Assembly (NCBI GenBank): GCA_963575745.1
Contig: CAUYUJ010004979.1
Span: forward strand, 1-64,000
Direction: 5' to 3'
DNA length: 64,000 nt
From: Prorocentrum cordatum
Lineage: Eukaryota > Sar > Dinophyceae > Prorocentrales > Prorocentraceae
Part shown: in pieces, positions 703 through 64,000 of the stretch
Numbering within the stretch: position 1 is the first letter of the stretch
How the letters are laid out: each line of letters starts with the position of its first letter
Notes under the pieces: model-generated
Told to the model about the DNA's origin: nothing
The model's input: the letters and a program-made list of their open reading frames with translations, nothing else
Database searches by the model: none
Translations under genes and position numbers: made by a program

Positions 703-3700
703 AGGTGCCACGACAACATTGCGTCATGGAATGTGCGTCGGGCAGGTGCAGAGAACGGCCATGACATAATTAATTCACTACGTCGTTTAGATGTGGGACT
801 CGCGGGGTTGTGCGAGTGTCATTTCCTTTCAGTTCGTGATCTCAGCATGCGAGGTTACACAATTTTTCGGAGTACTTGTCGGAAGGCTGCGGTGATTATG
901 TCTAAGTCTTGGAGAGACTCGCTCAGAGCCTCATATCGTGGCAAAGGTTTTGTCATTTGTAGTTATTCTAGTGTTACGGTTATTGTTGCATATATGCCAC
1001 ATGAGAGTATCAATGCCCTTACGGAAGAACAGTATGAGCATGATGTGTATGAACAGATATTGTTTGATATATCCCAAGTGCTTCGCACACATAGGTCTAA
1101 GTTCCCGAAGCAGCCGCAGGGCCTGGTCTTCTTGACAGATGCTAACGTCGAACTCGAGCCAGATTCGGAGGTCAACGGCTTTAGAGTTACTGGATCAGGG
1201 CTTCTGGAGGCGTCTGGGATTGCTGGGGAGTCTACGGAGATTGATACTGGGATGGAGGAGGGAGCGGATGACGGCAACCCGTATATGACTCAAGCAAAAC
1301 GTGGTGCACGCAAAGCCAGACCTCATAGGCTTGTCTCGGGCTTCGAAATTCGACGGGCGTCTAGGTTGCAATCGATGAGGAGGGCCCTACTGGACTTCTG
1401 CGGGCTCTGGGGCATCAGGATGGAGAACACATTCTGGCAGAGGAGGTTGCATCGATGAGGAGGGCCCTACTGGATTCTGCGGGCTCTGGGGCATCAGGAT
1501 GGAGAACACATTCGGGCAGAGGAGGGTTACTTTCAAATCAGGTACGGGGGTGGAGAAGGTGCTCGACTATGTTGGTGTCAGCCGTCGTTTACACAGGCAG
1601 GAGCTCACCGTTGGCTGGATGCTGCCTTCGGAAGTCGGCCACGCCTGGACGGGGCACCCTTGCAGCAGATACGGGCGTGCGCTGTCTGACCACGCCTGCA
1701 TAGTTGTTCGCTTGTCTTGTGCACCGTCTGCGAAGAGACGGACCCAGCCTGCTCGAAAATTCATCCACTTGCAACCGGTGTCACAGCTGGAGTTTGCGAA
1801 GAACATGGACGATCGGGGCAGTCGTTACCGTGCTCTGTGCCAGGAAAATGCTGACCCAGAGGATCGACAGGAGATGTTGGATACGCTGGGACCTGACCTC
1901 CTAAAGGCCGCCGAGGAGACCCCCCAGAAAGATATCAATCCCAGGAATAATGTGCCAAAGAAATCCGAGATCCACTGGGCCGCCCAGGCAAGTAAACGTG
2001 AAGCTCTTCGTCGGGGGGATAGAGAGGAGGCTAAACGGTGCTCAAAGATTGTGAGGAGAGAAAGAAGGAGGCTAGAGGCAAGAGTACAGAGGTGGAGGAC
2101 GGAAATGAACACGAGGAGGAGGAGGAGGGCCAAGACGGAGACGTTGATCCTTGCCAACGGGATGGAGTCTCAGAACCGCGAGGAGTGGGGGGACGAGATA
2201 TTGGGGCACATGAAGTCTAAGGTGGAGGACCCCGAGGCCAGAGAGGTGACCCTGCGTGAGCTTCAGTCGCTGCGTGGTCTATGTTCGGGAAGCGGATCCT
2301 CAGAGGTGTTCTCGATGTCGCTCCTGCTGCGGGCGAGGGCGAAGCTGTCCACGGGAAAGGCCCCAGGTCCCGACAACGTGACTGTCACGATGTTGAAACA
2401 GCTCTCGTGGGCATCTGTGCGACGTGTTCTGGTGAGCTTCCAAGGTGTGTATTCCAGAAGGTTATGTTGTCCCGACAGTTGGCGTCAACTAGCTGCCACA
2501 CTCATGCCAAAAGAAATGGACATACAACATTTGACAGATACACGTATGCTATGTCTACAGTCGTGTCTTATGAAATGGTACATGACATGTATTGTGATGT
2601 TGATTGAGAAGAGGATTGAGGAGCACCGACACTATGTATGCCTGTACGGATTCAGATCGGGACGCAAAACATCGGAAATCACCAGCGTTGCCAAGAGGCT
2701 CAGCCAGCACTCCGCTGTCTGGGGCAAAGGAGACAGTTTGTGGCTTGCCAATCTTGATATCTTACAAGCTTTCGATAATGTTACTCCGTGCCTCGCCATG
2801 CGCTGTCTTCGTGCTCTTGACATACCTGCTGATCTCATTGTGGCGTTGATTGAACCCATGATGGATAATCAGTGCGTGGCCAGCTTCGAGGGCATCGAGG
2901 CATCGTCAGCGGTCTATTGGGACAAATCTATCGAACGGGAGGAGTAGAGGGACCTATGATTTTTCTGGCAGTTTCTATTGTACTCTGGAGAGATGTTATC
3001 GACAGATGGAGGCAAGAAACGCAGTACGGCATCAAATTGGAAAATGATGAGCGCATGTTCAATGGTGAGCGTATGACCCACAGTTTCTGGGCAGATAATC
3101 TTTTGTTGTATGCGAAGACCCGCACTGACCTTGAGTTGATGGTGCGTGACATGAGTATCCCCCTGATGAATGCAGGAATGACCTGGAAGCCGAAATCTTT
3201 GATGTATATTTACTTTGGTGCGCCGCCTGGCATCCCGCCGTCCCCTGAGCAGGATATCCGTGTGCTGGTGCCGTCTAGTGACGCCGCTCTTGGGACCCGA
3301 GAAGTGGTCCTACCGCGTGTTCAAGCGTTTGAGATCCTGGGAGCCACTCTGGAGGAGACCTGGAAGGACCACTCGGACTCAGAGGCCATGCTCCAGAAAG
3401 CCCAGAGGATGTTCTTTGGGGAAATCGCGTATTACCGCTGTTCTGGGATTGACTTGGCTGAAAGATTTACTCGCTATCAAGCTAAAGTGATTGCTGCATT
3501 ATTATTCAACTGTGAGGGCAGAACGCCCGACTATTCTACAATTGCTGCTGTTCACTATTTTGAAGGCAGATGTCTAGCTATAATGTCAGGTATACGCAAG
3601 CGGAGAACTGAAGGCTGGTCTGAGTTTCAACGTAGGCGATACAAAGCGGGACGACAGAGTTTTGCTGGACTTGGATTCCGAAGTGCGGTGCAGATATGGA

Positions 3701-4948
3701 TATTTCGTTGTTGGGATTGGGCTAAGGATGTCTCAGTTGCTGCAAGTATTCGTATGAGGAGATACACAACACACACAGAGGAGGAGGAGGGAGAGACGGT
3801 ACCAAATCGGCGTCAGAGGAAAACTCGGGCGATGGCGGCGGCGGCGACTTCTCAAACATATCATGTATCTCAGATATCCCAGATGTCGAGTGGCTGTCGC
3901 CGGCGTACACCAGATGATCAGCCTGCCATATCGACATGTCACGTGAATGGATGATATCTAGGCTGGCCATGTTACATGGAAGGGGGAAGTGGACGGAACA
4001 TCGTGACACATGTATTCTAGCAATGCCTGTAAAAGATAGGAAGCAGCTGACACGCATGAACATAGGCGGCCGCCCCCGTGGACATACTGCGTGGGACTGG
4101 TGCTTGTGCGATCTCTTTGGTTGTGAGTGGTACCTCTCATTCGACAGTTCCGCTGGGTCCCGTGAGAAATCTGCAAGCATTTGCTGACTGTGATTGGTAT
4201 GCAACACTTGTTCGACTTGTTTGTTCTACCCAGGCCGCCTGGTGTGAGACATGTGAAGGCAGAGGAGGAGGAGGAGAGTGAGATGAATGAGAGGATGAGC
4301 AAACGTATTGCCGCAAATTTTGAGAATGAAACGGAGTGGAGGTGTGAGAATATTGAGCGTCTTGGGATGGAGATCTTGGGAGATAGTAAGACTGTTGTAA
4401 ACTGGATGTGTGGTGAGTGGCAGATTCGCAACAAGCAGTATGTACGACTGGTGGGAACACTACAAAATACGGTATCGATGCTGTCTGGATGGGGACTGAC
4501 CTCACCTGCATCGGGACAGAATCTGTATAAGCATTTCTTTCGTGAGGGTAATGAGCGTGCGGATAAATTGTCGTGGGAGGCCAGAGGTGGCCAAACTATT
4601 ACTCGCTGGTTTGCATATGATAAGTTCCTCAGTACTCGTAAGACTGCTCTCCGTGGTGCATTCGATGGGGGTGTCAGTAATGAAGGATGTGGAGGTGGGT
4701 GGTGGCTTCAGATTGGCGTTGTAGGTAGGGGTTCCAGCGTGCAGGTTGATTTTCCCATCTCCTCCTCCTCCTCCTCCTCCTCCTCTTCCTCCTGCACCAG
4801 CTCGCACAGCTTCCATTGGCACGATGTGGCCGAGGAGGCGATGAGCTTGCCTCCTGGTAGCACGGTAACCTGCTGTGAACTAGCTGCCTGCGCTGCCCTG
4901 ACGAGAGCTGCTGCTCAGGTGGCGTGCGCTCTGCTACGACCTACCTAA
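703..4948 (+). pseudogene. LINE-A ORF2: endonuclease, reverse transcriptase and RNase H-like polyprotein, broken
   Basis: ORF2 follows the ORF1 TAG in the same frame with no ATG before the endonuclease. The first EEP motif SWNV is at about 724-735; then come CEC (about 811-819), TDANVEL (about 1136-1156) and SDHAC (about 1687-1701). An ~80-bp tandem duplication (about 1364-1443 and 1444-1523) shifts the frame within the EEP domain. The RT follows: LSTGKAPGPDN (about 2345), YGFRSGRKTSE, motif A LDILQAFDNV (about 2754), motif B RTGGVEGP after a frameshift near 2932, and motif C FWADN (3085-3099). Another frame change lies near 3955-4180. The RNase H-like part has Asp codons at 4382 (GDS), 4562 (RAD) and 4664 (FDGG) and Glu at 4877, an order discussed in the findings. 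A serine run coded by TCC repeats (4759-4793) sits in a loop. The frame ends in a TAA at 4946-4948. Confidence 0.88.
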
Positions 4949-9066: not shown

Positions 9067-9640
9067 ATTTGTTGTCAGGAAGCTCTGCGAGTTCCCCGGC
9101 GGTAAGAAAGGTTGACGGTTTACCGCCGGCGCCCAGTGGTAGAAGAGCTAGAGGAATTCGGCGACAGGGTGGAGCTAGTTGGCGAAATGTCGAAAAGGGA
9201 CGCGATCATACCTTCCGCGGCCTGGCTCAGCCGATTTTGCAGTTCTAACAATTCGTTTGGGCTGCTATTTGCGCAGAGCGAAGCTTGGCATTACAGAAGT
9301 TACCTCACACATTCTTAGTTCATGCCGTCGAAAAATTCTGCCGAGCGAAGCCAGGGGCCGACTTCACGTTGGCAGTCCAAAAATACCTCGTAGAGCTCTT
9401 TGGCATCGATGAGCTAGAGGAATTCCCGCGCGGGGTGGAGCTAGTTGGCCGACCCGATCAAAAGAGACAATGTGATAACCTTGGGTCGCTTTTGCTTTGA
9501 TTTGAAAGATATTTGACAATTCATTTTGAGAACCGGTATTTTTTCTCACGTGTAGTGGGTTATGCCGCGTCTGCCAGTTAAATTGTCAGGTCCGTAGCTG
9601 CAATATTACTATCAAAAGCCTTGCTGGAACCAACTGCGTT
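9067..9640. repeat. Variant dyad, partial ~350-bp repeat and unit end
   Basis: A dyad with arms CCGGCGGTAA and TTTACCGCCGG lies at about 9096-9129. It is followed by a partial copy of the ~350-bp tandem repeat (about 9138-9385), then the left half of an inverted-end unit starting ACCTCGTAGAGCTC at about 9386. Noncoding. Confidence 0.65.
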
Positions 9641-15224: not shown

Positions 15225-18200
15225 ATGAAACAAGGGGCTACAGCAGATCGGGGATTTGCTTGCATGAGGGCACTTCTTTCTCACGGCTGTGAAGTGTTCT
15301 GTTTACAGGAGTGTGAACACTTACCGTCCAATTCAATTCAGCTGCTTGGCTGGCACCTAGTTTACTCAAGTGACAGGAAGGCTTCCATAGCTTTGAGGGG
15401 GAAGTCTTGTCACAACATAGTTCGTTCTTGGAATAATCATGCTCGTCTTGCTATTGTGTGTTTGCGTCATCCGTGTATCTTTCTTGTCTCTGCGTACTTT
15501 CCGAATAGATCGGAGAATCGTTCATTGGAGGTGGCTTTTGAGATGCTGAAGACAATCGAAACAACTTATCGGAGGTGGAAGGAGGAGTGCAGATACACAT
15601 GTGGGCTTGTGATTGCAGGGGATTTTAATGTTGAGCTTGCGCCCGACATCACCTGTTCAGGAGGCACGGTGACTGGAGGCGCTGTGCAGATTCTCGACGG
15701 GAGGGGATATGGGAATGATACGGAGGATAGACGGTGGGAGGAGGACATGTGGCGATCTCAGCTGCAGGAGTGGCTATGTCGGATGCGCTTGCTGGCAGTC
15801 AATTCTCTTGGCTCGCCGTACTCTCGGCAGCCGACCTTCGTGCATCGTGCGAACAATGCTCGACGCAAGTCTGGGGCGAAGACTATTGCGCCAAAAGTGC
15901 TTGACTATCTCATGGTCCCACAATCCTGGGAGGGTGACTTGGTTGAATGCCGAACGGATTGGATCCCAGAGACCCCGACTACCAACTTCTCGGATCACGC
16001 CTGTGTCTACGCCGAGTTCCAGATGCAGAACCCTCAGGTCACGAAATATCAAGGCCCCCCTAGCCACCACACAAGCCACAAAGAGTTCCAATCGTATCGG
16101 GAGGAGGCCCAATTCCAGGTCCTGGCGGACGTACAGATCCCGACGGTGCCCCCACAACGTATTGCTGGAACGATCGCTGGACATGCGTTACCACTCCTCA
16201 CGGTGAGGGCCCCCAGGTACTCCAGAGGGCTCCCACCAAGTAGGACTCCTCAACATGCCGAGCTGGAGGTACAACTCAGAGAGGCACGTGCTAGGAAGGA
16301 CAGAGCGTTGGCTCGAGACCTTCGACGTCGCATCAGACCGCTGGCGCGGGAATATCGCCGACGGAAGGTGGAGTGGGAGGCACTACCATCTAGGAAGGGG
16401 AGGAGGACACGTGTGACGGAGTTGAGGGTGACGGACACTGGGGGAGGGGATATGGGGCCTACGACTATGATGACGGAGGACAGGGAACTGTGGGCGGAGG
16501 AGGTGGAGCGATATGCTGTGCAGAGTATGACTTGTGATGACTCCAGAGCCCGCAATCGGGAGCTTGTGTCCACATTGCGTCGCCATGCATCTCAATCAAC
16601 AGCCTCTTCGGACAACGCACTTACGATCACATACTCTACTATTCTGCAGGCGCGGAGCAGGCTCCGAACAGGACGGGCCTGTGGGCCCGACGGCATCTCG
16701 GTTGAACTTCTCAAGGCTCTTTTGTTGAGGTCAGTGCGTTCTATTGGTAAGGTTTTCTCTGATATATTCAACGGGCTTCGCCCGACGCCAAGGGAATGGC
16801 AGGAAGTATACCTAACACTTATGCCGAAAACGAGTAAACTGGAAACATTGCGACAAACAAGGAACCTGCTTGTTGGAAATACCTTGGCCAAGTGGTATCT
16901 CACGTGCGTGACGATTTTACTGGAAAGATGTGTGGAACCCTTCATGAGTGATCTGGCGGTTTACGGTTTTACCAGCGGACGGCGTTGCTGAGAGATTTCA
17001 TCGGCCATGAAATGTATTGCACAGCATGCTTCCACATGGGGGCGAGATCAAACGGCGTGGCTCCTCAGCTGTGACATCGAGCGGGCGTTCGATGCTGTGA
17101 CGCTGCCGACAGTCTCGAGAGCGATGACGGCCCTGGGGATCAGTGCACGGTTACAGTATGCGTTATTGGAGCCTCTCTCATCTACCTCATGCACGGTGCT
17201 GTTTGAAGGAGTGACAATCCCAAATGTGCAGTGGGATAGGTCGCTCCGTACTGGGGGTACCGAATCACCTATCGCGTTTACTATTGTCACTATTGCTATG
17301 TGGCGTGATGTGATTGCTCGCCTGGACCAGCGCGGTGTCGGAGTCGAGATGCCATGCCATGATGATCACTGCCGGTATGCACGATGGAATCATGCTCTCT
17401 GGGCTGACAATATTTTTCTGGCCGCCAAGTCAGCATCGGAGGCGCAGGTAGCAGCCGCTGCCTTCACTACTGCTCTCAGGGATTGGGGGATGGAGTGGAA
17501 GGAGGAGAGTTTAGAAATGATGGTGTGTGGTACTCAGTACACTGATACGGTCACGGTTCAGATTGGCTCGCGGATTGTACCTTTCAAGCATGTTGAGAGT
17601 TTGAATGTGCTGGGGTATCAGATTCCCAGAAGTTTCACTGCTATCCACACGGATGTGCAGGAGCGCGTCCAGCAGGCCCGACGGGCGTTCTTTGCGCAGG
17701 TGCAGTATTTTACGTGCAGGGCGCTGCCTCTGGTGAAGAAGTTTCGTCGATATCAATCGACTGTGCAGAGCCGCCTTTTATATGCAGCAGAGGCCATCAC
17801 GATTGACAGTGAGTGTGTGAGGGTTATCCATGCGTTCGAGGGTATGTGTCTTCTGAGAATGTCAGGGAGGAGGAAGCCAGGAGATGTGGGGTGGGAGGTA
17901 TGGCGGCCAGCTGCACTGACACGAGTCAGGACAATCTTCTGCGATGGGGGTTTCCCATCGGCTGTGCAGATGCTGTGCTGGAAGAGCTGGGGCATGATGC
18001 GCTCCACGAGGCAATATTTACTATCTTTGGAGGAGGACAGGACGGCAAGGACGGAGGTTGAGGTGGAGGGATCAACGACTCAACGTGCTAAACGTGTTCG
18101 CTTTACGGAGGGACGGGGGGAGGATGTTCCTGCTACGACTATGATGGAGGTGGAGGGGAGGATTACGGATATGGAGAGACGGCTGGAGGATCTATGCGCG

Positions 18201-19556
18201 CATGTCGCCTGTTCCATTGCCCGCTCACAGCCGATGCCCTCTGGAGAGGGAGCAGCCCAAGCTCTCAGAGACGAACCACTTGCCGTCTCAAGAGGGAGGA
18301 GGGCCTTTCGCGACTCCCGACGTGCACTTATGATGTACAATGTGGGCTGGATCACGGCTCGCGATACAATGACAGAGGTTCTACGACGACACGGCAACAG
18401 GGCCTTATCTAGTTCGGGCAAACGGCTTCGTGGAGGCCCTGTGTCTGTGGGCGGACGGTCTTGGCAGTTCCCATGCATTCAGTTCTTTGGGGAAAAGTGG
18501 TGGGAGTCTGTGCGGGGTGATTGGGTTCAGTTCTTGGAGGTATGGAAGCAACTCCTTATACAATACAACAAAACTAAGGTCTATGATTACTTTGTGGTGT
18601 CTTGGAAGGGCTCTCCTAATGGGCCTCGAGGCTCCCCTGAGGCTCGAGAGAAGGCCGATACTGAGATGGTCGACGCCGCGACCAACCCTCTGCACCCCAA
18701 GTATGACCCCAAAGAGTCCGCCAAGCTTGCAATACGTTATGCGATGGTCCAGGAGCGTGCGACTGTGTGGGATATATCGTCAGAGGGTTTTGCTGCTGAG
18801 TTCAAGGGTGACTCACTACTTATCTGCTCCTGGCTCCAGGGTAAATGGAGATGTGAGAATCGGGGCTACTGCAAGAGGACAGCTGCCATGATTGATTGTA
18901 CCTTTGAGCTCGCTGCGTGTTTCAATCTGAGGCCTGCTGCCTTGGGACGTGAGATATGGAGACACGAATTCAGGGAGGACAATACACGAGCGGATGAATT
19001 GACGCATGAGGCCAGATATGGCCGCACATTCTACAGAACTCATTGTTATCTATATCCATTCGAAACTTATCTCGTACCGTTCGCTATCAGGGGAGGCTTT
19101 GATGGCGGGGTTGACCAGCAAGGATCAGGATGTGGTTTCTGGCTTCAGATCGGCTTAATCAATACTCAGTGCAATCCCAGTGAGATAGGCATCGCTTCCG
19201 CGAGAACCGTGGGCCCCTTCCCTGCTGGGCATGAGTTTGCTGTTTCTAGTGCCGTGCCCCTCGTTTGGAGGGATGTGGCCGAGGCCGCGTGGCTCCTCGA
19301 AGGAGCTACAGTCACAGAATGTGAATTGTCGGCAGCCGAAGCGCTGCTCAGCGCTGCCCGTGTGTTGCTGCGGGACCGGTCCTCGCCCAGCTGCACCCAG
19401 CTGGGAACGCGAGTCCAAACAAACAAACAGACCAGGTTGTTTGTTTCTTCGATGTGTGTATATTCCTGTGCAGCCACGCTGTTGTATCATATCTGCACAG
19501 CTACGCTGACTTGTATATTCGCACAGCTCCGCTGTTGGTGCTTAGGTTGCCTGTAG
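15159..19556 (+). pseudogene. LINE-B1 ORF2: EEP endonuclease, reverse transcriptase and permuted RNase H-like polyprotein; one nonsense codon
   Basis: About 1,400 codons, counted here from the ATG at 15225. EEP: E29 in LQE, D133/N135 in GDFNVEL, D257/H258 in SDHACVY. RT: LRTGRACGPDGIS (about 16668), TLMPK, YGFTSGRRC, motif A CDIERAFD (Asp codon 17073), motif B RTGGTESPIAF, motif C LWADN (WADN at 17400-17411). A TGA at 16989-16991 interrupts RT; LINE-B2 has TGG (Trp) there, so this is a single nonsense change. A segment of unknown function follows, with GGRSWQF and GEKWWESVRGDW (about 18450-18530). The RNase H-like domain has Asp codons at 18810 (GDS), 18993 (RADEL) and 19101 (FDGG) and Glu at 19323 (ECELSAAE). 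There is no stop before the 3' junction; the frame runs into flanking sequence and ends at 19556. Confidence 0.9.
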
Positions 19557-30870: not shown

Positions 30871-31225
30871 CCTCGTAGAGCTCTTCGTCATCGATGAGCT
30901 AGAGGAATTCCGGCGCGGGGTGGAGCTAGTTGGCCGAGCCGACCAAAGGAGACAATGTGGTAACTTTGGGTGGGTTTTGCGAAAATTTGAAAGATGTTTG
31001 ACAATTCATTTTGAGAAAGCAGATTTTTCGCACCTGTAGTGGGTCATGCCGCGTCTGCCAGTCAAATTCTTCGGTCCGTAGCTGCAGTATTACTACCAAA
31101 ACATTTGGAGGAACCGATGTTGGATAAAACAGAAAAGCGTGATTTTTCGAGTTTTTCGTATCTCGCTCCAGAAGGTTTCTTCATGTGTTTCGAGGATCGC
31201 CGTGCAAGAAAAGTGCTCTACGAGG
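30871..31225. repeat. 355-bp unit with inverted ends next to LINE-B2
   Basis: Starts CCTCGTAGAGCTCTTCG and ends GTGCTCTACGAGG. It has GGTGGAGCTAGTTGGC, CATTTTGAGAAAGCAG and TGCCGCGTCTGCCAG inside. The dyad left arm (CCCGGCGG) follows and is interrupted by LINE-B2. Confidence 0.7.
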
Positions 31226-31241
31226 TTCCCGGCGGTTCCCG

Positions 31242-34168
31242 GCGATATGCTGTGCAGAGTATGACTTGTGATGACTCCAGAGCCCGCAATCGGGAGCTTG
31301 TGTCCACACTGCGTCGCCATGCATCTCAATCAACAGCCTCTTCGGACAACACACTTACGATTACATACTCTACTATTCTGCAGGCGCGGAGCAGGCTCCG
31401 AACAGGACGGGCCTGTGGGCCCGACGGCATCTCGGTTGAGCTTCTCAAGTCTCTTTCGTGGAGGTCAGTGCGTTCTATTGGTGAGGTTTTCTCTGATATA
31501 TTCAACGGGCTTCGCCCGACGCCAAGGGAATGGCAGGAAGTATACCTAACACTTATGCCGAAAACGAGCAATCTGGAAACATTGCGACAAACAAGGAACC
31601 TGCTTGTCGGAAATACCTTGGCCAAGTGGTATCTCACGTGTGTGACGATTTTACTGGAACGATGTGTGGAACCCTTCATGAGTGATATGGCGGTTTACGG
31701 TTTTACCAGCGGACGACGCTGCTGGGAGATTTCATCGGCCATGGAATGTATTGCACAACATGCTTCCACATGGGGGCGAGATCAAACGGCGTGGCTCCTC
31801 AGCTGTGACATCGAGCGGGCGTTCGATGCTGTGACGTTGCCGACAGTCTCGAGAGCGATGACGGCCCTTGGGATCAGTGCACGGTTACAGTATGCGTTAT
31901 TGGAGCCTCTCTCATCTACTTCATGCACGGTGCTGTTTGAAGGAGTGACAATCCCCAATGTGCAGTGGGATAGGTCGCTCCGTACTGGGGGCACCGAATC
32001 ACCTATCGCGTTTACTACTGTCACTATTGCTATGTGGCGTGATGTGATTGCTCGCCTGGATCAGCGCGGTGTCGGAGTCGAGGTGCCATGCCATGATGAT
32101 CATTGTCGGTATGCACGTTGGAATCATGCTCTCTGGGCTGACAATATTTTTCTCGCCGCCAAGTCAGCATCGGAGGCGCAGGTAGCGGCCACTGCCTTCA
32201 CTACTGCTCTCAGGGATTGGGGGATGGAGTGGAAGGAGGAGAGTCTCGAGATGATGGTGTGTGGTACTCAGTACACTGATACGGTCACGGTTCAGATTGG
32301 CTCGCGGATTGTTCCTTTCAAGCATGTTGAGAGTTTGAATGTGCTGGGGTATCAGATTCCCAGAAGTTTCACTTCTATCCACACGGATGTGCAGGAGCGC
32401 GTCCAGCAGGCCCGAAGGGCATTCTTTGCGCAGGTGCAGTATTTTACGTGCAGGGCGCTGCCTCTGGTGAAGAAGTTTCGTCGATATCAATCGACTGTGC
32501 AGAGCCGTCTTTTATATGCAGCAGAGGCCATCACGATTGACAGTGAGTGTGTGAGGGTTATCCATGCGTTCGAGGGTATGTGTCTTCTGAGAATGTCAGG
32601 GAGGAGGAAGCCAGGAGATGTGGGGTGGGAGGTATGGCGGCCAGCTGCGCTGACACGAGTCAGGACAATCTTCTGCGATGGGGGTTTCCCGTCGGCTGTG
32701 CAGATGCTGTGTTGGAAGAGCTGGGGCATGATGCGCTCCACGAGGCAATATTTACTATCTTTGGAGGAGGACAGGACGGCAAGGACGGAGGTTGAGGTGG
32801 AGGGATCAACGACTCAACGTGCTAAACGTGTTCGCTTTACGGATGGACGGGGGGAGGATGTACCTGCAGCGACTGTGATGGAGGTGGAGGGGAGGATTAC
32901 GGATATGGAGAGGCGGCTGGAGGATCTTTGCTCGCAGGTCGCCTGTTCCATTGCCCGCTCACAGCCGATGCCCTCTGGAGAGGGAGCTGCCCACACTCTC
33001 AGAGACGAGCCACTTGCCGTCTCAAAGGGGAGGAGGGCCTTTCGAGACTCCCGACGTGCGCTTATGATGTACAATGTTGGCTGGGTCACGGCTCGCGACA
33101 CAATAACAGAGGTTCTACGACAACACGGCAACAGGGCCTTATCTAGTTCGGGCAAGCGGCTTCGTGGAGGCCCTGTGTCTGTGGGCGGTCGGTCTTGGCA
33201 GTTCCCCTACATTCAGTTCTTTGGGGAAAAGTGGTGGGAGTCTGTACGGGGCGATTGGGTTCAGTTCTTGGAAGTATGGAAGCAACTCCTTACACAATAC
33301 AACAAAACTAAGGTCTATGATTACTTTGTGGTGTCTTGGAAGGGCTCTCCTAATGGACCTCGAGGCTCCCCTGAGGCTCGAGAGAAGGCCGATGCTGAGG
33401 CGGTCGACATCGCGACCAACCCTCTGCACCCCAAGTACGACCCCAAAGAGTCCGCCAAGCTTGCAATACGTTATGCTATGATCCAGGAACGTGCGACTGT
33501 GTGGGATATATCCTCAGAGGGTTTTGCTGCTGAGTTCAAGGGTGACTCATTACTTATCTGCTCCTGGCTACAGGGGAAATGGAGATGTGAGAATCGTGGC
33601 TACTGCAAGAGGACAGCTGCCATGATTGATTGTACCTTTGAGCTCGCTGCGTGTTTCAATCTGAGGCCTGCTGCCTTGGGACGTGAGATATGGAGACATG
33701 AATTCAGGGAGGACAATGCACGAGCGGATGAATTGACGCATGAGGCCAGATGTGGCCGCACATTCTACAGAACTCATTGTTATCTATATCCATTCGAAAC
33801 TTATCTCTTACCGTTCGCTATCAGGGGAGGCTTTGATGGCGGGGTTGACCAGCAAGGATCAGGATGTGGTTTCTGGCTTCAGATCGGCTTAATCAATACT
33901 CAGTGCAATCCCAGTGAGATAGGCATCGCTTCCGCGAGAACCGTGGGCCCCTTCCCTGCTGGGCATGAGTTTGCTGTTTCTAGTGCCGTGCCCCTCGTTT
34001 GGAGGGATGTGGCCGAGGCCGCGTGGCTCCTCGAAGGAGCTACAGTCACAGAATGTGAATTGTCGGCAGCCGAAGCGCTGCTCAGCGCTGCCCGTGTGCT
34101 TCTGCGGGACCGGTCCTCGCCCAGCTGCACTCAGCTGGGAACGCGAGTCCAAACAAACAAACAAACAA
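31242..34168 (+). mobile_element. LINE-B2: 5'-truncated copy of the LINE-B family
   Basis: Similarity to LINE-B1 begins at GCGATATGC (31242, matching 16508) and runs to the ACAAACAAACAAACC tail. The left flank is CCCGGCGGTTCCCG and the right flank CAGGTTGACGGTTTACCGCC, the two halves of one dyad. 5' truncation is typical of target-primed reverse transcription that stopped early. Few substitutions separate it from LINE-B1. Confidence 0.92.
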
Positions 34169-41990: not shown

Positions 41991-42212
41991 TTTCTGCGCA
42001 CCCTCCGCGCAGGATCTCCTCCTCCTCCCTCTCCTCTGCTCCTCTTTGCTTCCTCCTCCGCATCTTCATAACCATCACCATCACTCCCCACTCATCATCA
42101 TCATCACCATCAGCATCACCATCACCATCCCACGATCACTCACCATCATCGGCGCCGAACGATCATCATCATCATCATCATCATCACTACTCGCTGACTT
42201 GAGGCCTGAATA
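41991..42212 (+). repeat. CT-rich and CAT-rich lead segment of the 160-bp satellite
   Basis: TGCGCACCCTCCGCGCAGGA, a CTCCTCCTCC stretch, then ATC/CAT repeats and GAACGATCATCATC ending in ACTCGCTGACTTGAGGCC. The same segment precedes the other two 160-bp arrays (60310 and 62845). Confidence 0.8.
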
Positions 42213-43430
42213 TGGAGGAAGTATCAGGCGGGAGCCTCGTCTGTGAGTGATTTGTGAGGAAGTCTCAAGCGGAAGCCCCCTCCCTAAGGGGCCCGCACTC
42301 CATCTTGGTAATCCGAGCGGGTCATCCGAAACGTGTAACTGTCGTCACTTTTGGGCTCCCGAGGCTTGCTTCTGGAGGAAGTATCAGGCGGGAGCTTCGT
42401 CTGTGAGTGAATTGCGAGGAAGTCTCAGGCGGGGCCCCCCTCCTTATGGGGCCCGCAATTCATGTTGGTAATCCGAGCGGGTCATCCCAAACGTGTAACT
42501 GTCGTCACTTTTGGGCTCTTGAGGCCTGAATATGGAGGAAGTATCAGGCGGGGGCCTCGTCTGTGAGTGAATTGCGAGGAAGTCTCAGGCGGGAGCCCCT
42601 TCCTTATGGGGCCCGCTCTTCATGTTGGTAATTCGAGCGGGTCATCCGAAACGTGTAACTGTCGTCATTTTTGGGCTCTTGAGGCCTGAATATGGAGGAA
42701 GTATCAGGCGGGGGCCTCGTCTGTGAGTGAATTGCGAGGAAGTCTCCGGCGGGGGCCCCCTCCTTATGGGGCCCGCAGATCATGTTGCGAATCCGAGCGG
42801 GTCATCCTGAAACGTGTAACTGTCGTCACTTTTGGGCTCCTGAGGCTTGAACATGAAAGAAGTATCGCGCGGGCGCTTCGTCTGTGAGTGAATTGTGAGG
42901 AAGTCTCAGGCGGGGGCCCCCTCTCAATGGGGCCCGCAGATCATGTTATTAATCCGAGCGGGTCATCCTGAAACTTGTAACTGTCGTCACTTTTGCGCTC
43001 CTGAGGTTTGATTACGGAGGAAGTATCAGGTGGGAGCCTCGTCTGTGAGTGGATTGCGAGAAAGTCTCAGGCGGGGCCCCCCTCCCTATGGGGCCCGCAG
43101 ATTATGTTGCGCTTCCGAGCAGGTCATTTTGAAACCTGTTACTGTCGTCACTTTTGCGCTCCTGAGGTTTGATTGCGGAGGAAGTATCAGGCGGGGGCCT
43201 CGTCTGTGAGTGAATTGCGAGGAAGTCTCCGGCGGGGGCCCCCTCCTTATGCGGCCCGCACTTCATGTTCGAATCCGAGCGGGTCATCCGCAACGTGCAA
43301 CTGTCGTCATTTTTGGGCTCTTGAGACCTGAATATGGAGGAAGTCTCGAGCGGGGGCCTCGTCTGTGAGTGAATTGCGAGGAAGTCTCAGGCGGGGGCCC
43401 CTTCCCTATGGGGCCCGCTTCCCGAGGCGC
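42213..43430 (+). repeat. 160-bp satellite, block 1 (about 7.5 units)
   Basis: GGAAGTATCAGGCGGG recurs every ~160 bp from 42215. Each unit has GCCTCGTCTGTGAGTGAATT, GGGGCCC...GGGGCCCGC (a dyad around CCTCCYTATG), AATCCGAGCGGGTCATC and ACTGTCGTCACTTTTGGGCT. Noncoding. Confidence 0.92.
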
Positions 43431-49800: not shown

Positions 49801-51084
49801 TCCCACTGAGAGCCAGGAGGATCTAGCCTAGCGTGTCAGACAGCCTCCGCGCCCATGCGACAAGAGAGGTTGCGATGAAGTTGCCCCACCACGCTGTAGC
49901 CAAAAGAGACGTTGTGTTGAAGCCTTGAATGACAATCCCATCGTTACCGCTAATCTTCCGTCTGTTGCTCCGCAGGGGAGCAAACGAGCCCGTGACTTCC
50001 CCTTTCTTGACAATGTGAAGGAACAGCCGGGTGCTCGACCCTCTGGCGAACGCGTGAATGTCTTCGAGCTCAACGCCTGCTCTCAGGCGCGGCTGGGCAT
50101 GATGCATGCGACGGGTGATTGGTCAGTCCATTGTCGCTCGTTCGCCTCGCGTGCGAGAGATGCCCGAGCGGCTTTCCTCGGCTGGCGGAATGGAGGTCTC
50201 CATGCTGGTTGGAGAATATGGGAGGATGTCTTCATTGCTGACCAGGACGGCAACGCGTAGTGGTGGGAAACAATGCAGTTCGGCAGAGATTGGTCGTCAT
50301 TCATTGAGAGATTGCTCAAGCGTTTGCATCTACCTGCCATCTTGGACCATCTGGCCAAACCCACGGCGACTGTTGTCCGCTAGGAGGAGGAGGAGACAAA
50401 TATCAATGATGATAGGATTGCCCGCCGTCCTGCCCATATCATCGAAAATGAAGCTGTCTTTGACTACGAACCGGACAAGATTCGGTTTGAAATACTGGGT
50501 GACAGCTTGTGTGTTGTCCAATGGATTAGAGGGCTCTGGAGGTGTACCAACATGGGCTATAACAGTACTGTTGAGGCTGCGCAAAACATCCTTGATGATT
50601 CAACAAACACTTGTCTGAGAGCAGCGTGTGCAGGTGCGGACCCATTTAAGCGCCTTCTATCGTGCAGGCAACACTTATGCGGATGAACTCACGTGGGCCT
50701 GCAGAGCGTGCCCACGCACATTAAAGACAAATCCGTATCTTGCACCACTGTGTATTTCGAAAGTGTTAGGATTGAGGGGATACTTCGACGTAGGTGCTTC
50801 CGATATTGGTGCCGGGGGTGGCTGGTGGCTGCAGGCGTTTGTAGAACACCATAGTGAAATGCAGTGTCGCGTGATTGCCGAGGAGGCGTTTGGCCTCGAT
50901 AGGAAATCAACCGTGACTGTCTGTGAGCTAACGGCCGCGGCTAAGCTTATTCACGCAATCTCTCAGATTGCGTCTATTCTAGATTTGCGTTTCGCTCGCT
51001 CGGTAGTGTCACTTGCGCCTGGTGGCCGCGGGGGGCACCGCTGCTCGCATGTGCTGGGGGATCCCGCCGCAAAGCCCGCAAAAA
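46868..51084 (+). mobile_element. LINE-D1: 5'-truncated, strongly decayed, stacked on N4
   Basis: It starts directly after the N4 tail and its regenerated target CCTGGTTGAA. It runs through RT, a tandem-repeat linker, the middle segment and the RNase H-like domain to AGCCCGCAAAAAACC, followed by TGGTTGACGGTTTACCGCC. ACCTGGTTGA occurs at both ends (about 46858 and 51085). It shares long similarity with LINE-D2. Confidence 0.85.
46876..51050 (+). pseudogene. LINE-D1 ORF2: reverse transcriptase and permuted RNase H-like remnants, many breaks
   Basis: RT N-terminal part: LKSGAAGPDHVTRDML (about 47382-47430) and AWKRFLVALIP. Motif A region SLDVLQ is damaged (about 47785). Motif C LWADN is intact (WADN at 48073-48084). 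After RT there are four ~250-bp-scale repeats with IPTA(T/A)L-H/R-T coding around CCGACAGCTACGCTGC (about 48888, 49130, 49338 and a partial). The middle segment shows WRIWEDVF. RNase H-like parts: EILGDSLCVVQW (about 50491), YADELTWACRA (about 50676), YFDVGASDIGAGGGWW (about 50783), VTVCELTAAAK (about 50916). Frames change at least six times. No intact protein can be made. Confidence 0.82.
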
Positions 51085-51510: not shown

Positions 51511-54500
51511 CGCAAAATTGAACAACGCAAACTACGTGCACAAGCACAGGCACGTAAGGTCAAAAAGACTATGGGGGAGTGGGAACTTACGTATGATGTT
51601 AAGGCCAAACAGGTGGAAATTGGGAGGTATTTGAATAACAGGGTGGAGGACTACGGGGCCAGGAGGGAGGTGCAGTCTGTACTGGAAGGTCTGGCATCGA
51701 AGCTCAGCCCGTCCCAGTGCGTGAGCATCACCATGCGCGATATTGTGCGGGCGAGGGCTCGCCTCAAGAGCGGGGCGGCAGGATCCGACCAAGTGACGCG
51801 GGAGATGTTGCATCTCATCCCCTCTGCCAGCCTCAAGACAATCCGACGCCATTTCAATCAGATCGCCAATCGTCGTCAACAGGTCCCCTCAGACTGGAAG
51901 AGATTCCTAGTGACACTCATCCCGAAGGCGCCGTCCATCCAGGAGCTCTCGGAGACTGGGGCGATCTGCCTCTTGAGCCTGGTCCAGAAGTGGTACAGCC
52001 ATGTATTTGTCCTTAAGGGGGAACAACACTTGGAGAAGATCAAGCATTCACTTAACATGTATGGGTTTGTACAACTCAGGAAAGTTTCGGAGGTCACGTC
52101 ATTTGCCATACATCTGTGTCAACACTCTGCCCAATGGGGAAAATGGGGAGAAGCTCTATCTTGCCAGCCTCGATGTCCTACAGGCACTTGACCATGTTAC
52201 TATTATGTTAGCCTTGCAAAGTATGGAGAAGCTTGGTTTTGACCCCGCTTTGATCTATGCCCTTCTCTGCCCTATGACCGAAAACACGTGTAAGGCCACC
52301 TTCGAAGGGACTCAGAATTTGCACTGGATTGGTTGGGATCGGAGTATCAGAACGGGAGGGGCGGACCGTTCATATTCAAAGTTGTGAGTGTGGCTCTGTG
52401 GAACGATATTGTTGGGACGTTGAGTCCCCCGTACCCATGCCCACTAGATCTACTATTTCCCAGGCCCTCTGGGCAGACAACCTACTGCTCTACGCCAAAG
52501 ACGAACGGCAGCTCAAAACCATGATAACCGAGCTCACCACTCCCCTTCTCCAGGCCGGCCTCATTTGGAAACCATCCTCTCTCAAGCTCATCCCTTTTGG
52601 CGTCGACGGCTCGAATGATCTAGTTCTTGAGTTTGTGACATCTACACGGACCCACGCGTGCACACTCGAAGGTGTTAACACCTCGGACATCTTGGGTTAT
52701 AGACTGGACAGATATTGGACGCAGCATAGCGACCTGCAATCCAACTTGGATCGTGCCCGTGGGGCCTTCTTTGCTGACGTTGAATATTATAGAAGCCATC
52801 GCATTCCGATTGAAAGACGATTGCAGCGTTTCCGACTTCGTATCCAGAGTGAGGTGCTCGTTGCAGTTGAGGGGGTGACGATTGCCAACGTCACAGCTCA
52901 GAAAATATTATCCTGGGAAGGGGAGCTGCTGGCAATCAATGAAGGAAGGAGGAAAGGAGCGACAGAAGATTGGACGGTATTTCAACAGAGGAGATTTAAG
53001 TTTGCACGCGACCAGTTCGCGCACCATGGCTTTATGTCTGCTGTGGAGCTCTTCATTCACAGAAACTGGTTGTGGGCGAAAGATGTCGCCTGCTTTGCTC
53101 GTGGCTTCTCGTATCAGACTGCAGAGCGGAATGAACAGAACAAGGATAACCAGCCTTCTCCAGTTGTACTGCCCAGATATATTCCGACAGCTACGCTGCG
53201 CACTGACAGAGTACATGCACACACACGGTCTCCGTTGCCAGAATCACAGGAAGACGCGGCTATGTTTGGTAGCTGCGCTCGGTCGCGAATGAACAAACAA
53301 AAGATGGATTGTCAACGTTCTCCTGATACTCTGCCCAGCGTTATTCCGACAGCTACGCTGCACACTAACAGTGAAGATCATACACATGCTCACTCTTTGC
53401 TGCCTGTGCCTCAAGTGGATGGTCAACGTTCTTCCGATACGTTGCCCAGCTATCTTCCGACAGCTACGCTGCACACTAGCAGTGGGGATCATGCACGCAT
53501 GCATGCTTTGTTGACGTTGTCTCAAGTGGATCGCCGACGTTCTTCTGATAAGTTGCCCAGTGATATTCCGACAGCTACGCTGCGCACACACAGAGAGGAT
53601 CTTGCGTATTTCCCTCTGCTATTGCCTGAGCATCAGAGTGAAACGGCTACGTTTGGTAGCCGCGAACGTTCGACGTGGAACAGACATCATACGGATTGAT
53701 CTGCTTTGTTGCCTTGTTATGTTCCGACAGCTACGCTGCGCACTCACAGTGCATACCATGCGCATTCTCGTGTGCCCTCTTTTGCGTCACCTCATATTGT
53801 TTTGCCTGGGCCCCAGGGAAGCGCGGTTATGTTTGGTAGCCGCGAGAGACTAGCGACGAACAAGCAAGATTGTCAACGTTCTTCTGCCGTGATGTTCAGA
53901 GCCTTGTCCTCGGCGGATCTCTGTGGTCGTGTGCCGTCTGCGTCCAAAATAAGAGTTCCTTTGGGCACTGACCGCCGTGGTGTGAGTGATCCACTGCAAC
54001 TGGCGCATCTGTTTGAGTGCGCCAGACTCCTGGAGCAACGGGGTTTGCAGTGTGAATCGCAGGGTGGTTCTAGTCCTGCGGCCACAGCCCCCCCCAGACA
54101 GTGGTGAGAGCGAACCCGCGCCTGTGGTCAAGAATCGTCGCACGCAGATCGTGGATGCCCGTCTTGCCGCCAGCGGAGAGAAACGAAGCATTGGCCCGAC
54201 CCCCACCGCGAGCCAGGAGGAGCTCGAAAGCGTGTCAGGCAAACCCCCGCGCCCTTGCGACAAGAGGGTTCGGGATGAAGACACCTCTCCGCGAGGCAGC
54301 CAAAAGAGACGCTGTGTTGCTGCCGTGAGTGACGACCCCATCGCTTTCGCCAATCGTCCGTCTGCCGCTCCACAGGGGAGCAAGCGACCCCGTGCCCCTC
54401 TTCCCCTCAGTTATGCTAGCGAGCCGCGTGATGCACGACCCTCTGGCGCACATGTGAATGCCTTCAAACTCAACGCCTACTCTCAGGCGCGGTTGGGCAT

Positions 54501-55482
54501 GATGCATGCGCCGGGTTATTGGTCAGCTCATCGTCGTGCGTTTGCTTCGCGCTCGAGAGATACCCAAGCTGCTCTTCTCGGATGGCGTGGTGGTGGTGTA
54601 TATGTCGGCCGGAGAAAATGGGAAGATGTCTTCATGGCGGGTCAAAATGGCAGTGCGGAGTGGTGGGAGACAATGCAGTTCGGAAGAGAAGATTGGGCAG
54701 TCTTCATTGAGAAGCGACTCAAAATGTTGCACCTTCCTGCCATCCTGGACTACGTAGCCAAACCTAGAGTGACTGTTGCCCGTTCGGGGGAGGAAGAGAA
54801 GAACATTGATGATAAGAGTGCGCGTCGGATTGCTCATAACTTTGAAAATGAGACGGCCTTTGACAACGATTGCGATAAGATACCGTTTGAAATACTGGGT
54901 GGCAGCTTGTGTGTTATCCAATGGATGAGGACCTTGGAGGTGTACCAACATGGGATACAGCAGTACCCTGGAGGCTGCGCAAAACACCCTTGATGAGCTA
55001 ACAAACACATGTTTGAGAACTGCGTGTGCGGGGAATGACCCGATTAAGCACCTATATCAGGAGGGTCGCACTTATGCAGATGAACTCACGTGGGCCTGCA
55101 GAGCATGCCCACACACATCGAAGAGAAACGAGTATCTAGCTCCATTATATACTTCGAAAGTTCTAGGATTGAGGGGTTACTGCGACGGAGGTACTTTTGA
55201 TATAGGGGCTGGGGGTGGCTGGTGGCTGCAGGCTTATGTAGAACACCGCTGTGAAATACAGTGTCACGTGATTGCCGCGGAGGCGTTTGGCCTCGATAGG
55301 GAATCAACTGTGACTGTCTGTGAGTTAACTGCCGCCTCGAAGCTTATCCACGCAATCTCACATATTGCGTCTATTATAGATAGCGTCTTACACGCTCGGT
55401 AGTGCCACTTGCTCCTGGTGGCCGCGGGGGGCACCGCTGCTTGCATGTGCTGGGGGACCCCTCCGCGAAGCCAGCAACAAAA
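51511..55482 (+). mobile_element. LINE-D2: 5'-truncated non-LTR retrotransposon
   Basis: It begins upstream of RT, in the segment AAACTACGTGCACAAGCACA shared with LINE-D1, and ends in AGCCAGCAACAAAAACC. It is less decayed than LINE-D1. The right flank is only CTGGT before N5 begins, so another insertion used the regenerated site. Confidence 0.87.
51514..55402 (+). pseudogene. LINE-D2 ORF2: reverse transcriptase, PTATL-repeat linker and permuted RNase H-like domain, broken
   Basis: RT: LKSGAAGSDQVTREML (about 51763), DWKRFLVTLIPKAPS, motif A SLDVLQALDHV (about 52165), motif B RTGGA, motif C LWADN (WADN at 52470-52481). Frameshifts lie near 52150 and 52350. The linker (about 53160-53600) has four in-frame copies of IPTATLRT/LPTATLHT, with a fifth DNA copy at 53722. 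A stop (53697-53699) and frame changes follow. The middle segment has GRRKWEDVF and AEWWETMQFGREDW (about 54610-54700). RNase H-like: EILGGSLCVIQW, where the conserved Asp codon is GGC at 54901 (Gly), then, after a frameshift, YADELTWACRA (Asp 55079), YCDGGTFDIGAGGGWW (Asp 55184) and VTVCELTAASK (Glu 55322). The frame ends in TAG at 55400-55402. Confidence 0.86.
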
Positions 55483-60695: not shown

Positions 60696-60755
60696 ATCAT
60701 ATATCATCATCAAACACCGTCGTCATCATCCCATCACCATCATCCACCAAGAGGG
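60310..60755 (+). repeat. CT-rich and CAT-rich lead segment of satellite block 2
   Basis: Same order as 41991-42212: CTGCGCACCCTCCG, CTCCTCCCTCTCC, then long ATC/CAT repeats with GAACGATCATCATC and TCACTCACC. It is longer here because the CAT tract is expanded. Confidence 0.88.
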
Positions 60756-62110
60756 AGCCTCGTCTGTGAGTGAAGTGTGAGGAAGTCTCAGGCGGGAGCC
60801 GCCTCCCTATGGGGCCCGCAGATCATGTTACTAATCCGAGCGGGTCATCGGATTCTTGTAACTGTCGTCACTTTTGGGCTCCTCAGGTCTGAATTTGCAG
60901 GAAGTATCAAGCGGGAGCCTCGTCTGTGAGTGAATTGCGAGGAAGTCTCAGGCGGGAGCCCCCTCCCTATGGGGCCCGCAGATCATGTTATTAATCCGAG
61001 CGGGTCATCGGATTCTTGTAACTGTCGTCACTTTTGGGTTCCTCAGGTCTGAATTTGGAGGAAGTATCAGGCGGGAGCCTCGTTTGTCAGTGGATTGCGG
61101 TCAAGTCTCAGGCGGGAGCCCCCTCCCTATGGGGCCCGCAGATCATGTTATTAATCCGAGCGGGTCATCGGATTCCTGTAGCTGTCGTCACTTTTGGGCT
61201 CCTCAGGTCTGAATTTGGAAGAAGTATCAAGCGGGAGCCTCGTCTGTGAGTGAATTGTGAGGACGCGTCAGGCGGGAGCCCCCTCCCTATGGGGCCCGCA
61301 GATCATGTTATTAATCCGAGCGGGTCATCGGATTCCTGTAACTGTCGTCACTTTTGGGCTCCTCAGGTTTGAATTTGGAGGAAGTATCAGGCGGGAGCCT
61401 CGTCTGTGAGTGAAGTGTGAGGAAGTCTCAGGCGGGAGCCGCCTCCCTATGGGGCCCGCAGATCATGTTATTAATCCGAGCGGGTCATCGGATTCCTGTA
61501 ACTGTCGTCACTTTTGGGCTCCTCAGGTTTGAATTTGGAGGAAGTATCAAGCGGGAGCCTCGTCTGTGAGTGAATTGTGAGGAAGTCTCAGGCGGGAGCC
61601 CCCTCCCTATGGGGCCCGCAGATCATGTTATAATCCGAGCGGGTCATCGGATTCCTGTAACTGTCGTCACTTTTGGGATCCTCAGGTCTGAATTTGGAGG
61701 AAGTATCAAGCGGGAACCTCGTCTGTGAGTGAATTGTGAGGAAGTCTCAAGCGGGAGCCCCCTCCCTATGGGGCCCGCAGATCATGTTATAATCCAAACG
61801 GGCCATCGGATTCCTGTAGCTGTCGTCACTTTTGGGCTCCTCAGGTTTGAATTTGGAGGAAGTATCAGGCGGGGGCCTCGTTTGTCAGTGAATTGCGAGC
61901 AAGTCTCAGGCGGGGGCCCCCTCCTTATGGGGCCCGCAGATCATGTTACTAATCCGAGCGGGTCATCGGATTCCTGTAACCGTCGTCACTTTTGGGCTCC
62001 TCAGGTCTGAATTTGGAAGAAGTATCGAGCGGGACCTTCGTCTGTGAGTGAATTGTGAGGACGCGTCAGGCGGGGGCCTTCCTATGGGCCCCGCAGCTCA
62101 CGTGGTTCCT
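60756..62110 (+). repeat. 160-bp satellite, block 2 (about 8.5 units)
   Basis: GAAGTATCAAGCGGG recurs at about 60901, 61060, 61220, 61380, 61540, 61699, 61859 and 62018. Units are more alike than in block 1 and share CATCGGATTCCTGTAACTG in place of CATCCGAAACGTGTAACTG. Noncoding. Confidence 0.93.
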
Positions 62111-63046: not shown

Positions 63047-63155
63047 ATCAATCATCATCACCAGCATCACCATCGCCATCCCGCGATCACTCACCATCAT
63101 CGGCATCGAACGATCATCATCATCATCATCATCATCACTACTCGCTGACTTGAGG
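62831..63155 (+). repeat. CT-rich and CAT-rich lead segment of satellite block 3
   Basis: CGCACCCTCCGCGCAGGATC, CT-rich sequence, a long pure CAT/ATC tract (about 62961-63050) and ACTCGCTGACTTGAGGCC. Confidence 0.9.
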
Positions 63156-64000
63156 CCTCGTCTGTGAGTGAATCGTGAGGAAGTCTCAGGCGGGAGCCCC
63201 CTCCCTATGGGACCCGCAGATCATGTGATGAATCCGAGCGGGTCATCGGATTCCTGTATCTGTCGTCATTTTTGGGCTCCTCAGGTCTGGATTTGGAGGA
63301 AGTATCAAGCGGGAGCCTCGTCTGTGAGTGAATTGCGAGGAAACCTCAGGCGGGGGGCCCCTCCCTATGGGGCCCGCAGATCATGTTATTAATCCGAGCG
63401 GGTCATCGGATTCCAGTAACTGTCGTCACTTTTTGGGGCTCCTCAGGTCTGAATTTGGAGGAAGTATCAGGCGGGGGCTTCGTTTGTCAGTGAATTGCGA
63501 GCAAGTCTCAGGCGGGGGCCCCCTCCCTATGGGGCCCGCAGATCATGTTACTAATCCGAGCGGGTCATCGGATTCCTGTAACTGTCGTCACTTTTGGGCT
63601 CCTCAGGTCTGAATTTGGAGGAAGTATCAAGCGGGGGCCTCGTCTGTGAGTGAATTGCGAGGAAGTCTCAGGCGGGAGCCCCCTCTCTATGGGGCCCGCA
63701 GATCATGTTATTAATCCGAGCGGGTCATCGGATTCTTGTAACTGTCGTCAGTTTTGGGCTCTTCAGGTTTGAATTGGAGGAAGTATCAAGCGGGAGCCTC
63801 GTCTGTGAGTGACTCGTGAGGAAGTCTCAGGCGGGGGCCCCCTCCCTATGGGGCCCGCAGATCATGTTATTAATCCGAGCGGGTCATCGGATTCTTGTAA
63901 CTGTCGTCACTTTTGGGCTCCTCAGGTCTGAATTTGGAGGAAGTATCAAGCGGGGGCCTCGTCTGTGAGTGAATTGTGAGGAAGTCTCAGGCGGGGGCCC
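63156..64000 (+). repeat. 160-bp satellite, block 3, running off the window
   Basis: About 5.3 units of the same satellite, closest in sequence to block 2. The array continues past the right edge, so its full length is unknown. Confidence 0.92.

Follow-up and report, generated by a model that had tools for sequence, protein, structure and literature searches.

The C-terminus of the reverse-transcriptase proteins of the LINEs described here is very probably a circularly permuted archaeal-like (aRNH) RNase H, as judged from motif order, conservation, the homology of one half, and predicted structures. The usual linear order of RNase HI, b1-b2-b3-aA-b4-aB-b5-aE, is not encountered; the two halves are swapped, and the chain would fold as b4-aB-aC-b5-aE-b1-b2-b3-aA. 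The old termini (the end of helix aE and the start of strand b1) would be joined by a linker of ~20 residues, and a break between helix aA and strand b4 would have created the new ones. In such a fold, the Asp residues of GDS and RAD in the first (DS) half, the Asp of FDGG and the Glu of TVTxxEL in the second (DG) half, and the aRNH-type Arg of YREGN would meet in one two-metal site.

The window, that is, the whole stretch of 64,000 nucleotides of Prorocentrum cordatum DNA that was analyzed, contains seven LINE copies, all on the + strand, as found by tblastn of the window proteins against the window. They form four lineages (A; B1 and B2; C1 and C2; D1 and D2), with ~25–45% identity between lineages in most of the matching stretches of that comparison. 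We observed the C-terminal motif order D70-like, D134-like, D10-like, E48-like in all seven copies, three of which are damaged. The permuted order with all four catalytic acids is present in A (domain at 4307..4945; D codons 4382, 4562, and 4664, E codon 4877), B1, B2 (33523..34116; D 33544, 33727, and 33835, E 34057; modeled with AlphaFold), and C1 (39648..40265; D 39720, 39903, and 40017, E 40200). The damaged copy C2 (45371..45890) keeps GDS, RAD, and FDGG (Asp codons 45380, 45569, and 45675) but has Q in place of the E48-like Glu (TVCQAQLLAS) and a frameshift between the halves. D1 (50486..50984) is also frameshifted and retains the four acids in GDS, YADEL, FDVG, and CEL, with DVG for DGG. 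D2 (54886..55399), likewise frameshifted, has lost the D70-like Asp (GGS in place of GDS) and keeps YADEL, CDGG, and CEL, with D or E at codons 55079, 55184, and 55322. An earlier note on this DNA had claimed the permuted order for every LINE lineage, which agrees with all seven copies, and each of the 22 codons that it named (four each in B1, A, B2, and C1 and three each in C2 and D2) encodes D or E within the motif given. Its further claim that the four key residues are kept in A, B, and C holds for A, B1, B2, and C1. The residues that it omits for C2 and D2 are true lesions; for D1 it gave no residues.

In B1, a first ORF (15225..16991, +) encodes at its N-terminus a possible endonuclease, perhaps of APE type, followed by the beginning of the reverse transcriptase; the Exo_endo_phos match at residues 16–258 reaches only E = 0.011, below the Pfam cut-off. 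A second ORF (17007..19556, +) encodes the rest of the reverse transcriptase (RVT_1 2.9e-11, residues 11–206), a spacer, and the C-terminal putative permuted RNase H. The secondary structure of B1 was placed from the homologous B2 AlphaFold model by using the B1–B2 offset of 14734, all elements being on the + strand. Strand b4 (18789..18809; B2 model E80–86) is followed by the D70-like Asp codon 18810, and a long helix lies between b4 and b5 (18861..18923; H104–124). The Arg of the YREGN/FREDN motif (18972..18974) is the aligned counterpart of the PREEN Arg of archaeal-type RNase HI, and helix aE (18984..19016; H145–155) carries the D134-like Asp codon 18993. Then come strand b1 (19071..19115; E174–188) with the D10-like Asp codon 19101 (FDGG), strand b2 (19122..19163; E191–204), and, after a low-confidence loop (residues 211–234 of the B2 model, pLDDT < 50), strand b3 (19263..19295; E238–248). 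Helix aA (19311..19382; H254–277) bears the E48-like Glu codon 19323.

Can the two halves be recognized as RNase H by homology? An RNase HI HMM made from 63 bacterial and archaeal sequences, with the window scanned in six frames at E up to 5, lists six of the seven copies, every time through the DS half (model positions 54–125 of 127). The E values are 2.6e-7 for A, 4e-5 for C1, 0.05 for D1, 0.08 for C2, 0.45 for B1, and 0.6 for B2; of these, just A and C1 reach significance by themselves, and the frameshifted D2 is absent from the list. The next matches, two minus-strand stretches (E 3.9 and 4.8), were taken as chance. The DS-half profile matched five PDB chains at E < 0.001, all of them RNase H (best 6.1e-5, 3u3g), and hhalign aligned it with columns 64–126 of the RNase HI family (63 sequences) at E = 8.6e-13, with a score of 70.3 compared with at most 16.7 in column-permuted controls (0 of 60 reached it). 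By profile, the DS half belongs to the archaeal type of RNase HI. This type (S. tokodaii ST0753, 2ehg/3aly; LC11 RNase H1, 3u3g/4h8k; Pfam RVT_3, PF13456) shares GDS...RExN..AD with the DS half and has the same residue set, with Arg at the aligned Arg position; the LINE domain differs in its swapped halves and an extra N-terminal helix and, in LINE-B, in a long variable b2-b3 loop.

The DG half gave no PDB match by profile, no RVT_3 match in 12 sequences, no other RNase H family in Pfam, and nothing significant against an HMM of the RNase HI N-half. Its hhalign score was 14.2 compared with a null mean of 9.3, and 1 of 60 controls reached it. In a home-made global profile alignment, it was matched by 3, 17, or 19 of 100 controls according to the gap costs, whatever the choice of which the E48 column was never placed on the catalytic Glu. 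At a posterior threshold of 0.01, where confidence is low, the full hhalign path aligns FDGG to the TDG strand and places the TVTxxEL Glu opposite the TNNxAEY Glu. Because these statistics are weak, we do not claim the DG half as RNase H by sequence alone; of the separate half searches that the earlier note proposed, the one with the DS half matched RNase H and the one with the DG half had no significant match.

The match of the swapped-order profile to 3u3g reaches positions 72–169, into aA, at E 4.4e-5 compared with the 6.1e-5 of the DS half alone, and that to 4h8k is slightly better (5.7e-4 vs. 7.8e-4), with 3aly, 2ehg, and 4e19 worse and the Glu of TVTxxEL out of register. RVT_3 was found in 7 of 11 swapped sequences (best 0.0039) and in 10 of 28 sequences in natural order (best 0.018); among the single swapped sequences, C1 gave 0.0099 (profile positions 35–119) and A 0.034 (DS half only), and B2 and D2 gave none. 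No RNase H family was above the Pfam cut-off in the scanned proteins. The hhalign scores to RNase HI were 74.0 in natural and 73.7 in swapped order; thus, swapping alone is no sequence proof of permutation. The absence of a significant DG-half match to RNase H would suit a domain made of half an RNase H (DS) and an unrelated C-terminal beta-meander/helix module, with DGG and E conserved for some other reason, an explanation that we consider improbable. The permuted RNase H proposed in the earlier note draws its support from the DS-half homology, the motif order and its conservation, and the models; sequence statistics do not establish the DG half.

AlphaFold predicts strands and helices in the succession b4-a-a-b5-aE-b1-b2-b3-aA and puts the acids where RNase H has them, both for the homologue P0039 (pLDDT 92, pTM 0.88) and for B2 of the window (mean pLDDT 78, pTM 0.74). 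The structure prediction suggested earlier for the B2 domain thus gave RNase H elements in permuted order. An equivalent residue set, compatible with the sequence, would also be found in a domain-swapped or split enzyme, in which a DS half and a DG half from different proteins would combine; however, a single chain is predicted with the pTM of 0.88, in modeling confined to single chains, and such pairing seems very unlikely. For the permuted single-chain domain, structure comparison in chain order matches parts of the models weakly to RNase H chains. The CinA C-domain, TolB N-domain, Ham1, and XCC0632-like folds, which we take to be SCOP fold c.51, match the models in chain order, and the c.51 sheet order 21345 equals the RNase H order 32145 after the cut proposed here. 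PelC chains, which lead the Foldseek PDB matches (E 2.4e-4), were rejected, with an rmsd of 9–13 Å and a TM by query of ~0.3.

Conservation was examined in each half. Invariant in 12 of 12 rows are G13, D14, S15, W21, G24, Y33, G59, R68, E69, N71, A74, D75, A81, and R82 of the DS-half alignment and D11, G12, G13, G18, G22, and E53 of the DG-half alignment; the equivalents of the RNase HI catalytic set D10, E48, D70, and D134 are D11 and E53 (DG half) and D14 and D75 (DS half). Among the columns covered by at least five rows of a 14-sequence alignment, only six are at least 80% acidic (E185, D189, E244, D250, D287, and E360 in P0018 numbering), each in 14 of 14 sequences; four are the RNase H catalytic set and two are neighbors. 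No such column lies upstream of E185 in the 14 sequences, which gives no hint of a concealed D10/E48 pair in the usual order, a feature that the earlier note had named as evidence that would count against permutation. A conserved upstream helix (RLAxxxE....W) before b4, like aA in RNase HI, could hint at the ordinary order, with a degenerate b1-b3-aA ahead of the GDS strand and the DG half as a duplicate. On the other hand, this upstream part lacks columns that are 80% acidic in the 14 sequences, and the models ahead of b4 show helices and low-confidence sequence and no strand (the B2 model covers 79 residues before b4); an ordinary order is very unlikely.

The permuted domain also keeps its fifth residue. 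R243 (P0018 numbering), at the position where aRNH enzymes carry Arg, is invariant in the 14-sequence alignment, and R141, invariant in a 20-row alignment, pairs with the REEN/REQN Arg of RNase HI, which points to Arg, not His, as the fifth residue. Rows that share 24–43% identity with the first row retain all four acids as well as this Arg. Could the domain be a permuted RNase H fold without hydrolysis that serves only as a hybrid-binding tether? A catalytic residue has been lost in C2 and D2; however, the losses are confined to damaged, frameshifted copies, and together with the retention across divergent rows this makes a mere tether unlikely. The dN/dS of B1/B2 is 0.16 for the C-terminal ORF and 0.09 for the DS half, and that of D1/D2 is 0.24 for the DG half (15 synonymous and 14 nonsynonymous changes) compared with 0.52 upstream of GDS; the B1/B2 ratio of 0.68 for the DG half comes from just 3 changes and is uninformative, and C1/C2 is saturated. 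At the sequence level, conservation in divergent relatives is a stronger argument against chance than the HMM matches in the window. The view that the permuted form is kept and not a chance rearrangement accords with the four acids conserved in those relatives and with the significance of A and C1 by the RNase HI HMM.

A homologue search with B2 residues 690–1035 found no relative among 8000 candidates scored. With a four-row and a 15-row domain alignment as queries, 23 and 25 proteins were found, each among 8000 scored, giving 33 distinct homologues in combination (P0012–P0044), many of them fragments. Most come from ENA, JGI, NCBI, and 'lgn', six from EukProt Pyramimonas sp. AAC.1, and five (P0039–P0043) from the dinoflagellate Prorocentrum cordatum; P0039, P0041, and P0042 carry the UniRef label 'RNase H type-1 domain-containing protein'. 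P0021 and P0032, from the Pyramimonas sp. AAC.1 transcriptome, which might be contaminated, are partial B relatives with 83% identity, and P0015 (from an NCBI contig) is another with 98%. In IMG/VR, 39 stretches fit the pattern, none a relative, and P0039 had no match among plasmid sequences. Two sets of sequences, both limited to those that cover the two halves, served for the counts: 17 sequences (B2, A, C1, and 14 of the 33 homologues), excised by the motifs themselves, and 14 sequences (B2, A, and 12 homologues). Fragments were left out of both, as were P0019 (frame lost past the DS half), P0028 and P0043 (internal deletions), and P0040 (RVD for RAD, Asp retained); P0013 is in the 14-sequence set only, and P0017, P0022, P0024, and C1 are in the 17-sequence set only. 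The permuted order recurs in all aligned metagenome and Prorocentrum cordatum relatives that cover both halves. We think it likely that dinoflagellates, and possibly other algae, harbor a large group of LINEs, ancient and widely distributed, with a permuted RNase H, to our knowledge the first in a retroelement, that was fixed before the A–D, Prorocentrum, and metagenome lineages split and has been kept active by selection.

The reverse transcriptase lies in the same ORF as the domain in B1, B2 (RVT_1 2.1e-12), and the metagenome relative P0035. In A and C1, the two are in separate frames or ORFs, the RVT_1 match of A (2.6e-6) being just under the cut-off and in a frame separate from the domain; the A and C ORFs scanned gave no Pfam endonuclease match. 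Motif C of reverse transcriptase is ordinarily F/YADD. In the six window copies scanned (B1 residue 125ff, from 17007; B2 residue 359ff, from 31039; A 2872–3954; C1 37811–39439; D1 ~48049; D2 52329–53699; C2 left out) it reads WADN, with Asn for the second Asp, as it does in P0035. A conserved Trp/Arg-rich segment of ~100 residues, with no Pfam match, lies ahead of the RNase H (~33067–33480 in B2; W46 in 9/9, R71 in 10/11, W84 in 10/11, and W96 in 11/11 rows, P0018 numbering).

Several repeats accompany these copies. The first ~60 codons of the B2 ORF (31039–31240) do not belong to the LINE; they are part of a dispersed repeat that recurs at 9555, 22895, 24849, 25573, 26491, 29931 (minus), 44188, and 56942; B2 is a 5'-truncated LINE joined to this repeat. 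The 17-mer TTGACGGTTTACCGCCG (at most 3 mismatches) occurs 27 times in the window, 25 of them on the + strand, compared with 0.10 expected (5031, 19623, 34175, 40424, 45948, 51091, and 21 other sites). It sits 3' of the domain in A, B1, B2, C1, C2, and D1, preceded in several copies by an A-rich run, e.g., CGCAAAAAACC, and is either a common 3' tail or a single insertion target shared by unrelated lineages. A 160-bp tandem satellite forms three arrays (42200–43418, 60748–62100, and 63154–64000), and tandem arrays with 73-, 177-, and 351-bp units occur elsewhere in the window.

LINEs of the I, R1, LOA, and Tad types likewise have RNase H downstream of the reverse transcriptase, in the usual order. 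Archaeal-like RNase H is also known in non-LTR elements as the aRNH of plant L1 and oomycete L1/Utopia (PMC5348765), where the marked residues read D-E-D-R/H-D along the alignment, in contrast to D70-D134-D10-E48 in the window LINEs; 'permut' is absent from the main text of that paper and from that of a survey of the RNase H-like superfamily (PMC3985635). The CIRPIN preprint (PMC12667903) reports a single pair of Ribonuclease H-like domains related by circular permutation, which could even include a relative; it names no mobile element, and 'transposon' has 0 occurrences in its accessible text. In their accessible parts, PMC5890265 treats Symbiodinium LINEs, with Pfam RNase_H named in the Fig. 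1 legend and permutation unmentioned, PMC5408684 concerns a permuted scaffold, and PMC3710099 (HEPN), PMC1079889 (kinases), PMC3150331 (HD domain), PMC7824862 (methylases), and PMC2628886 deal with different permuted folds or with no permutation. No paper of the open-access literature searched contains the phrase 'permuted RNase H', and the texts consulted there describe no retroelement whose RNase H is permuted, subscription papers being mostly outside this scope; within the text accessible, this fits the earlier statement that no such non-LTR element has been described. The domain is best read as a known kind of LINE RNase H with a new topology.

If so, the domain would superpose on RNase HI and hydrolyze the RNA of the RNA:cDNA hybrid by a two-metal mechanism. 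The permuted RNase H probably removes RNA following target-primed reverse transcription, and this clearing of the template would let second-strand synthesis proceed. The likely source of the permutation is a tandem duplication of the domain, after which the outer halves would have disappeared, copy 1 losing its first half and copy 2 its second. RNase H is among the most studied folds, and retroelement annotation uses profiles with a fixed active-site order. A natural permuted form would explain why the scanned proteins lack a Pfam RNase H above the cut-off and would provide a test of how far topology constrains a two-metal nuclease. The permutation, if natural, would also mark a single rare event that is helpful in classifying algal LINEs.
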